This document shows positions 3,080 to 37,920 of a stretch of 64,000 bases of DNA, in pieces. Position numbers and translations under genes: made by a program. The stretch comes from Acetomicrobium hydrogeniformans. GTDB taxonomy: Bacteria > Synergistota > Synergistia > Synergistales > JAFGMB01. How positions within the stretch are numbered: the stretch's first letter is position 1; each line of letters begins with the position of its first letter. The notes beneath the pieces are model-generated. The model was not told the DNA's origin and made no database searches. It saw only the letters and a list, made by a program, of their open reading frames with translations. Where the stretch lies: positions 186,001 to 250,000 of the forward strand of contig JAENYO010000003.1 of NCBI GenBank assembly GCA_016841745.1, given 5' to 3'.

Positions 3080-3790
3080 TCACATCTTTTCGATGTACAT
3101 CTGAAATGTTTTCAGAAAAGCCGGGTCATAATCGCTGTCAACATGGTTGGAGTTCCACAGGCCTGAATTTTTGACTTCTTCAATAGGACAGTACCTGCCA
3201 AGCCAGTCGTCAGAAGGTTCATCAATCCTTTCCTCTTTCTTCCAGTTACTTAAAAGGGCGATAACATTCTTTTCCAGGTAGCCCCGTTGGCTATCCTCTG
3301 AGGGTTCATCATTTACTTCCAGCCATAAAAAGGGCATTTGCCCAATGATGTTGCTGACCTCCTGTTCAATAGCGAGCTCCTGCCGTTGGATCTTTTTTGT
3401 GACAGAACTGCCCTTACCCCAGGTGTCTGAACGAAGAGAGCCGTATTTATTGATCAGGGAATAACCTATTATCTTTCTCAAGTCAGACTCCCTGTGATCT
3501 CCTCCTCCAGTTCTGCTGTTGCCCTTATGCTGACTCAATCGTGTCCAGAGGGCTATTTTTGATCCGCTGGAAAGAGCATGGGTATCTATTCTAACAACAC
3601 GATAACTTGAACCGGAGTCGCTTCGCACTTCCCCAGGTTCAAAGAAGAAACATATTCCTCTTTCGGGCCAGCGCATATTCCCTTCACATTGGGACAGGAT
3701 CCTCTCTCCGCGAGCCTTACGGTTGCGAAGCTTTGTTTCGAGCATATCCATAAGTTCATAAAATTTCTTTATATCTTCGAGCCTTGACAT
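3080..3790 (-). CDS. Conserved hypothetical protein, possible GIY-YIG-like nuclease fold
   Basis: A soluble protein of 236 residues (239 if the ATG at 3799 is used). ATG 3790 is preferred because AAAGGA lies 8 nt upstream of it, whereas the same AAAGG touches ATG 3799. Visible blocks are GICFFFEPGEVRSD, RVVRIDTHAL, LWTRLSQHKGN, a GGGDHRESDLRK segment, RGYLEKNVIALLSNW, WLGRYCP and SGLWNSNHV. This order resembles a widespread uncharacterised family. The hydrophobic strand, the RxxxH helix and a later E...N pair are reminiscent of GIY-YIG nucleases, but the second motif reads RID where a glycine is expected. The nuclease idea is inference only; the family is real but unnamed. It stands alone, between terminators and a long non-coding stretch. 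Confidence 0.6.
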   Translation of the reverse strand: MSRLEDIKKFYELMDMLETKLRNRKARGERILSQCEGNMRWPERGICFFFEPGEVRSDSGSSYRVVRIDTHALSSGSKIALWTRLSQHKGNSRTGGGDHRESDLRKIIGYSLINKYGSLRSDTWGKGSSVTKKIQRQELAIEQEVSNIIGQMPFLWLEVNDEPSEDSQRGYLEKNVIALLSNWKKEERIDEPSDDWLGRYCPIEEVKNSGLWNSNHVDSDYDPAFLKTFQMYIEKM

Positions 3791-35971: not shown

Positions 35972-36760
35972 TTGATAAAGGTTGGAGATATGGTAATGGG
36001 TTATTCCGAGACCGGAGAGGGTGCGCCCCTGGTCATGATAATGGGTTACGGTTCAACCCGGAACCTGTGGGAGCCCGAGACAATTGATAAACTGGCAGAA
36101 GATTTCAGGGTAATAACTTTCGATAACCGCGGAATAGGGGAGACTGAAAGGGGTTCTCTTCCTTTTTCAGTCTCGCAGTTTGCGGATGATACCTACGGTC
36201 TTATTAAGGCCCTTGGGATTGACAAGACACATGTTCTTGGCTGGTCCATGGGATCTCTCATAGCGCAGGAACTGGCTTTGACCCATCCCGATTCGGTGGA
36301 AGGACTGGTTCTATATTCGACATTCTGTGACGGGGGTATGTTTCCACCCGATCCTAAAGTTCTCGAAAGACTTCAGGACAGGTCCGGGTCTCCGGAGGAG
36401 AGGGGCATGCGTTGGATAGAGGCCCTGTTCCCACGAGAATGGACAGAGGAGAACGGCGAAAGGATCAAGGATATTTTCTGGCGTCCCATGGGGGAGATTC
36501 CGGGAGAAACCCTGGCAGGTCAGGCAGAGGCCATATACCGATGGAAGGGAAGCAAGGACCGACTCGAACATCTTCCATCTGCAACCCTTCTGATCACAGG
36601 AGACAGGGATATCCTTACCCCTAATGATAACTCGGAATTTATGGTCTCCAGGATACCCGGAACGAAACTGGCGATGATTGAGGGAGCCGGCCACGGGCTT
36701 ATGTTTCAGGATCCGGACCACTTCCTTTCAATAGTGAAAAGATTTCTTCTGAATACATAA
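35972..36760 (+). CDS. Alpha/beta hydrolase
   Basis: This 262-residue alpha/beta hydrolase has the nucleophile elbow G90-W-S92-M-G, the acid in LLITGDRDILTP and the His in GAGHGLMFQ. The oxyanion region is MIMGYGST and the strand-3 motif is TFDNRGIGET, giving the 3-oxoadipate enol-lactonase/haloperoxidase-like look. GTG 35963 touches the purine run AGGAG, whereas TTG 35972 is 9 nt from it and is preferred. Substrate unknown; esterase or lactonase activity is likely from the fold. It starts about 60 nt after the exported protein and may share its transcript. Confidence 0.85.
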   Translation: MIKVGDMVMGYSETGEGAPLVMIMGYGSTRNLWEPETIDKLAEDFRVITFDNRGIGETERGSLPFSVSQFADDTYGLIKALGIDKTHVLGWSMGSLIAQELALTHPDSVEGLVLYSTFCDGGMFPPDPKVLERLQDRSGSPEERGMRWIEALFPREWTEENGERIKDIFWRPMGEIPGETLAGQAEAIYRWKGSKDRLEHLPSATLLITGDRDILTPNDNSEFMVSRIPGTKLAMIEGAGHGLMFQDPDHFLSIVKRFLLNT

Positions 36761-36828
36761 TTTGATCCATGGGCAGGTATTGACTTTTTATTTCTGCAGG
36801 TTAGAATCTCCAGAGAAAATAATATTCC

Positions 36829-36957
36829 TGAAGGGGAGTAGCTTCACAGGGCAGGGTCAACAACCTGGTGCATAGCATCTGGTCCTGCCGTTAGGCTTAA
36901 AAAGCTGATTAGCGAGACCTTCGGTATGGCGGTGGCCATGCTGAAGGTCTTTTTTAT
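36829..36957 (+). ncRNA. yybP-ykoY (manganese) riboswitch with terminator
   Basis: The leader of the cation antiporter shows the yybP-ykoY pattern: GAAGGGGAGTAGC at 36830-36842, a GGTCAACAACC internal loop, CCTGCCG, and AGCGAGACCTTC at 36911-36922 closing P1 by pairing GAAGG with CCTTC. The 3' P1 strand is also the 5' arm of an intrinsic terminator (36915-36930 with 36935-36950, then a run of T), so the two folds exclude each other. In this class, Mn2+ binding stabilises P1 and lets transcription continue; that direction is inferred from known members. Confidence 0.85.
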
Positions 36958-36984
36958 TGGAATAAACCACAGGAGGGACCCGTA

Positions 36985-37920
36985 ATGTTAATGCTCGTTA
37001 TCATGGGATGTGCAGGGATCATTATTCTTTATGCAGGAGGAGAGATACTTGTAAAATATGCTTCCGCCCTGGGGCAGAAAACAGGTCTTTCGGACCTTTT
37101 CATTGGGCTTACCATTGTAGCTTTCGGAACTTCTGCTCCTGAACTGGTTTCGTCCCTTATTGCTATGCTAAAAGGTTCTTCAGGTCTGATAATAGGGAAT
37201 GTACTGGGATCGAATATCACAAATATAGGTCTTATCCTTGCCTTATCGGCTATGATAAGCCCCTTTGCCACGGATTTCAGAAGGAACTGGAAGGATTTCT
37301 TTTTTCTTGGCACGGCAAGTACTTTTGCAGGTCTTGTAATGTTTACAGGGCATATAGATCCATGGGAAGGCCTCATCCTTCTGGGACTCTTCCTTCTTTA
37401 CACCTTCTACCTGTTAAGGTCAAACAGCACTATGGATTCAAAAATCAGAAAATCACAGACAGGAATAGATCTGAAAAGTCTTATTCCTTCCATCGCTGGA
37501 ATAGTGACAGGAATATGCCTGCTTCCGCTGGGTGCAGAACTTCTTGTCAATTCAGCTCTCAGGATATCCGCTCTTCTGGGAGTTTCGGAACACCTTATGG
37601 GGCTGACCCTTGTTGCTGTGGGAACAAGCCTTCCGGAGCTCGCGACCAGCCTGATCGCAGCCCTTCGAAAAAGAGGAGATCTCTGCCTGGGTAATATTAT
37701 GGGATCAAATATTTTCAATGTGCTTGTTGTTCCAGGGATATGTTCCATATTCGGGAAGCTGGACTTCATGGCGGGGATAGTAAGGTCTGATATCATTATC
37801 ATGATAATAATATCCATGGCGGCGATTTCACTTTCATTTTCAAGGAGTTATCTTAGCAGGAGGGAGGGAACCTTCCTCCTGACATGTTACCTGGGCTACA
37901 TATTTAACCTCGTTTCCTGA
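36985..37920 (+). CDS. CaCA-family cation antiporter, likely exporting manganese
   Basis: This 311-residue membrane antiporter of the Ca2+/cation exchanger superfamily (YrbG-like) has about ten helices in two inverted halves. The two alpha-repeats are seen in LTIVAFGTSAPELVSS (about residue 45) with GNVLGSNITNIGLILA, and in LTLVAVGTSLPELATS (about residue 207) with GNIMGSNIFNVLVVPG; both Glu and Asn sites are intact. CACAGGAGGGAC precedes ATG 36985. A yybP-ykoY riboswitch controls it, and this class senses Mn2+, so manganese export is the best guess rather than calcium. That substrate call is inference from the regulation. Confidence 0.87.
   Translation: MLMLVIMGCAGIIILYAGGEILVKYASALGQKTGLSDLFIGLTIVAFGTSAPELVSSLIAMLKGSSGLIIGNVLGSNITNIGLILALSAMISPFATDFRRNWKDFFFLGTASTFAGLVMFTGHIDPWEGLILLGLFLLYTFYLLRSNSTMDSKIRKSQTGIDLKSLIPSIAGIVTGICLLPLGAELLVNSALRISALLGVSEHLMGLTLVAVGTSLPELATSLIAALRKRGDLCLGNIMGSNIFNVLVVPGICSIFGKLDFMAGIVRSDIIIMIIISMAAISLSFSRSYLSRREGTFLLTCYLGYIFNLVS

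Follow-up and report, generated by a model that had tools for sequence, protein, structure and literature searches.

A divergent yybP-ykoY-class leader, probably a Mn2+ riboswitch, upstream of a CaCA-superfamily antiporter gene in Acetomicrobium hydrogeniformans

The window analysed here, a stretch of 64,000 nucleotides of Acetomicrobium hydrogeniformans DNA, contains a gene for a CaCA-superfamily antiporter and, 29 nt 5' of it, a leader composed of a yybP-ykoY (Mn2+) riboswitch and a transcription terminator (36827-36956; Table 1). The position of a candidate promoter is consistent with a transcript start just 5' of the aptamer. The hallmarks that an initial annotation had described as closing P1 are indeed present, GAAGGGGAGTAGC at 36830-36842 and AGCGAGACCTTC at 36911-36922, and pair with each other as P1.1/L1/P1.2, so that the leader displays the L1 core characteristic of the class (GGGGAGUAGC/GCGAGACC) together with both helices. 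The gap in the hallmark pattern is 52 nt, and a pattern with a 50-nt gap limit therefore misses the leader, while the widened pattern matches the window once.

Table 1. Positions in the window of the leader elements, the expression signals and the antiporter gene.
Feature	Position	Strand	Basis or remark
Candidate sigma-70 promoter, TTGACT-16 nt-TAGAAT	36780..36807	+	Consensus match only, 10/12 positions
yybP-ykoY-type Mn2+ aptamer (predicted), three-way-junction form, no P2	36827..36926	+	RF00080 below gathering score, hold-out model R2, covariation
P1.1 5' strand, GAAGG	36830..36834	+	Partner CCTTC, 36918-36922
L1 5' strand, GGAGTA	36835..36840	+	3' strand GAGA, 36914-36917; family-invariant
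P1.2 5' strand	36841..36843	+	Partner 36911-36913; compensatory changes
P3.1 5' strand, GGCAGGG	36850..36856	+	Partner 36883-36889; compensatory change in 5/7 pairs
L3 metal-sensing loop (predicted), TCAACAACCT	36857..36866	+	Alignment with published L3 sequences
P3.2 hairpin	36867..36879	+	Covariation, fold
P4 hairpin	36891..36908	+	Covariation, fold
Intrinsic terminator	36914..36955	+	17-bp stem 36914-36951, T run 36950-36955; 5' arm holds P1.1 3' strand
Shine-Dalgarno-like AGGAGGG	36971..36977	+	7 nt 5' of ATG
CaCA-superfamily antiporter, 311 aa	36985..37920	+	TIGR00367 233.7 bits (cut-off 179.65), two PF01699 repeats

The second leg of the aptamer follows the P3.1-L3-P3.2 arrangement of the class, including its invariable Mn-sensing adenosine, and P2 is absent. 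When the L3 sequences of known structures are aligned, ACA48UACU in X. oryzae and UCA41AUUC in L. lactis, the marked adenosine is the one that donates its N7 to Mn2+, and its mutant loses the stably docked, Mn-dependent state (PMC6754395). The L3 of the window leader reads ACAACCU, which places the sensing adenosine at 36862, as the equivalent of A48 (X. oryzae) and A41 (L. lactis), and this adenosine is conserved in 13 of 13 aligned leaders. Nevertheless, the loop departs from the common ACAUACU, a point against the Mn2+ reading.

The Rfam covariance-model search proposed with the initial annotation gave a divided outcome. RF00080 (Manganese) was the sole match at E up to 10 among 4227 families (36700-37100, 401 nt), but with 16.6 bits (E 0.013) it stayed far below the gathering score of 45, a curated threshold rather than a structural feature, and at that score RF00080 has no match in the window or anywhere in the same genome, so that the proposed check, run with default settings, would formally come out negative. 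The score is low because the aptamer of this clade is divergent and lacks P2. Across the order, RF00080 exceeds the gathering score in a single genome out of 183. The weak match thus characterises the clade as a whole, and a clade-specific model built on 13 leaders recovers 26 leaders in 25 of the 183 genomes. The hold-out model R2 draws only on eight leaders that precede MntP or OadB-like genes in other genomes and, to avoid circularity, excludes the window sequence, its genome and every CaCA leader. Over the whole genome, it matches exactly two places, the window leader (71.4 bits, E 1.5e-18) and the leader of mntP (79.5 bits, E 3.7e-21), these E-values being rough, as the tool itself states for such models; in a second genus, CaCA leaders reach 69-76 bits with R2. 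Moreover, across the 13 aligned leaders, 94% of the cells are paired and 13 of 23 pairs show two-sided changes, with a covariation score of 0.494 versus 0.251 (sd 0.023) in shuffled alignments and at most 0.168 when slid. The fourth pair of P1.1, for instance, is G-C in 7 sequences and A-U in 6. The assignment to the yybP-ykoY class made earlier is thus borne out by the hold-out score and the covariation.

Downstream, the 3' strand of P1 had been proposed to double as the 5' arm of a terminator, and it does: nucleotides 36918-36922 lie inside the terminator stem 36914-36951. Since the stem includes the 3' strand of P1.1, P1.1 and the terminator are mutually exclusive, which is the competition between P1.1 and expression platform found in this class. 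The fold of the leader beats 200 of 200 shuffles (z-score -4.75), and nearest-neighbour energies computed for the full stretch, which leave out tertiary contacts and ions, favour the terminator (-45.1 versus -22.0 kcal/mol), as expected for a switch that would be off without ligand.

The second copy of the leader in this genome lies directly 5' of mntP (C8:450312-451015; L056/L060) and has U-A in place of C-G in P1.2, a compensatory change. Like this copy, leaders in related genomes stand upstream of genes for Mn homeostasis, namely MntP and UPF0016/GDT1. By downstream gene, the 26 leaders of the order divide into MntP (8), UPF0016/GDT1 (2), CaCA (5) and OadB-like (11), and a phylum-wide search of the 188 genomes in the collection found no leaders beyond the order. 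The two UPF0016/GDT1 genes under the same leader are at L080 (G162) and L081 (G161).

The initial annotation had also suggested looking for other CaCA genes with this leader. They exist inside the order, where 18 genomes encode a CaCA protein above the TIGR00367 cut-off, five with the leader, two with a divergent form of it and 11 with none, but among 37 CaCA loci taken from other phyla, model R1 found the leader in none, and RF00080 gave no match in the 20 of these that were scanned with it. In a maximum-likelihood tree, the CaCA protein of the window forms one clade (support 100/99) with those of G006, G015 and G031, and the leaderless proteins, including that of the same-family relative G001, are placed elsewhere. 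MntP is absent from G006, G015, G023 and G031, which represent the other genus of the leader-bearing CaCA clade; according to the listing, G143 and G144 lack it too. In G143 and G144, a divergent yybP-ykoY-like leader precedes a CaCA gene of a different clade (L105, L106). This leader is readable as AGGGAGTAGTC...GTCAACAATCT...GACGAGACT, the conserved L1 and L3 stretches, followed by a terminator; its scores with the 13-leader model are weak (20.1 bits in G143 and 15.7 in G144, the latter copy being cut by the contig end). As the two CaCA proteins of G143 and G144 occupy a third place in the tree, linkage of the leader to CaCA genes either originated in, or was retained by, two or more CaCA lineages.

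The most frequent targets are 11 proteins of the sodium-pump decarboxylase beta subunit family (OadB-like), all in other genomes of the order (L061, L066, L070-L074, L076-L079); no member is encoded in the genome that holds the window. They form their own clade (100/100) against ten canonical members and carry IGIIGAADGPTSIYV instead of IxIIGGADGPTxIY; the protein of G019 scores 435 bits for the family, versus approximately 480-514 for the top-scoring canonical proteins of the order. In those loci that were read, no alpha or gamma partner was recognisable next to these genes, as judged from the open reading frames. In G007, the leader is followed on the same strand by an OadB-like gene and then by mntP (L117, G007:C2:434500-440500, minus, motif at 3417), which likely constitutes a Mn operon. 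The altered L3 of the OadB leaders (UCACCA) was considered as a possible loss of the sensing adenosine, an idea rejected on alignment, in which the change is confined to the base two positions 5' of it; the X. oryzae and L. lactis structures also disagree at that base. A literature search, which did not cover key papers of 2015, found no paper tying the OadB family to a Mn riboswitch. Taken together, the leaders of the order might represent a multi-family Mn2+ efflux regulon in which transporters have been swapped under one divergent aptamer, namely, MntP, UPF0016/GDT1, CaCA (acquired on two or more occasions) and, most surprisingly, the standalone OadB-like clade as a new Mn2+-linked transporter type, although we hold this broader picture tentatively, at slightly worse than even odds.

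The gene under the window leader is, as the earlier annotation had it, of the Ca2+/cation antiporter type: its product combines two inverted Na_Ca_ex repeats with a full-length match to TIGR00367, and the fold is settled by sequence. The closest solved structure is NCX_Mj (MJ0091; PDB 3v5u and others), studied as a Na+/Ca2+ exchanger. We take E54, N81, E213 and D240 to be ligand residues of NCX_Mj; comparison of these four positions shows that the equivalents of E54, N81 and E213 are kept in the window protein, whereas D240 is replaced by N. As TIGR00367 is named for Ca2+/Na+ exchange and just D240 differs, the protein sequence by itself does not establish Mn2+ selectivity. Mn2+ export by this antiporter is the best reading of its regulation and gene distribution, from which it is drawn entirely: the switch is common to mntP in the same genome and to known Mn exporters in relatives, and MntP is absent where the CaCA protein is present in another genus, all of which point to Mn2+ export. 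With the same leader at mntP, the Mn exporters of relatives and the published antiporter BP3410, discussed below, this proposal of the initial annotation is better supported than when it was made.

We therefore regard the leader as a yybP-ykoY-class Mn2+ riboswitch that acts by transcription antitermination, and the antiporter as an exporter of Mn2+ alongside MntP, with a probability of roughly 85%. The aptamer with its covariation, the overlap with the terminator, the leader common to mntP and the clade-specific linkage are read from the DNA itself; Mn2+ as ligand, the ON direction and Mn2+ as the transported ion are what we infer. At low Mn2+, strand 36914-36930 would pair into the terminator and transcription would end at the T run. 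At high cytosolic Mn2+, the metal would be bound between L1 and L3 through the N7 of A36862 and phosphates, the two legs would dock, and docking would stabilise P1.1, keeping its 3' strand out of the terminator. With the terminator blocked, the antiporter would be made and would export Mn2+, as MntP would under the same leader in this genome.

A different division of roles, in which the yybP-ykoY switch is real, the antiporter is chiefly an exporter of Ca2+, or of Ca2+ together with Mn2+, and the RNA senses either ion, seems unlikely. The family name and the NCX_Mj-like ligand residues would suit it, as would the three-way-junction switch of S. pneumoniae mgtA, which reportedly binds Ca2+ and Mn2+ and serves Ca2+ efflux (cited in PMC9495176). 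However, MntP and UPF0016/GDT1 genes of the order stand under the same leader, the CaCA switch of B. pertussis is unaffected by Ca2+ (PMC8546581), and the other genus of the CaCA clade is without MntP, as if it had been replaced by CaCA. Ca2+ may still be an additional substrate of the antiporter, which is compatible with the evidence from regulation. Considerably less probable is a drift of the RNA to another ion, such as Na+ or a different transition metal, which would fit the Na+ linkage of CaCA and OadB-like genes. Two of the target families in the order have Na+-coupled members, and the divergent L3 and the low Rfam score would be in keeping with such a drift; however, the Mn2+-selectivity adenosine does not vary, nor does the L1 core, MntP is among the main targets, including in the same genome, and the known Na+ riboswitch (DUF1646 motif) is a different RNA class. 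Finally, that the leader is a mere attenuator or terminator devoid of ion sensing and resembles the aptamer by chance, as its strong terminator and a Rfam score below gathering might suggest, is ruled out for practical purposes by the hold-out E-value of 1.5e-18 and the compensatory changes in P1.1, P1.2, P3.1, P3.2 and P4.

For an antiporter clade whose members carry the annotation calcium/sodium exchanger, a Mn2+ riboswitch at this locus would point to Mn2+ as the likely ion. It would also complement the experiments published on a CaCA Mn exporter with comparative evidence obtained independently. The curated Rfam threshold misses nearly all Mn riboswitches of the order, and annotation pipelines would too. 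Moreover, the OadB-like clade provides a testable lead, in a family for which no role in metal homeostasis was found.

In B. pertussis, a yybP-ykoY switch governs the CaCA antiporter BP3410, whose expression depends on Mn2+ and does not respond to Ca2+, and which exports Mn according to the authors of that study (PMC8546581). Thus, the association between CaCA genes and this switch is not new; new are the divergent P2-less form missed by Rfam across the order, the mntP and CaCA leaders in one genome, and the OadB-like clade. BP3410 and the window protein are both CaCA-superfamily antiporters directly under a yybP-ykoY transcriptional switch, but BP3410 belongs to a different phylum, and the leader described here scores below gathering, lacks P2 and shares its genome with an mntP that has the same leader. 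The Streptococcus mgtA leader (cited in PMC9495176) is likewise a three-way junction and an ON switch serving a divalent cation exporter, whereas its target is a P-type ATPase and its ligand preference includes Ca2+. The RF00080 RNAs whose structures are known from L. lactis and X. oryzae (PMC6754395) resemble the window leader in L1 (GGGGAGUAGC...GCGAGACC), in the L3 adenosine and in the overlap of P1.1 with the terminator; they differ in forming a four-way junction instead of the three-way junction and in their L3, which here is ACAACCU.
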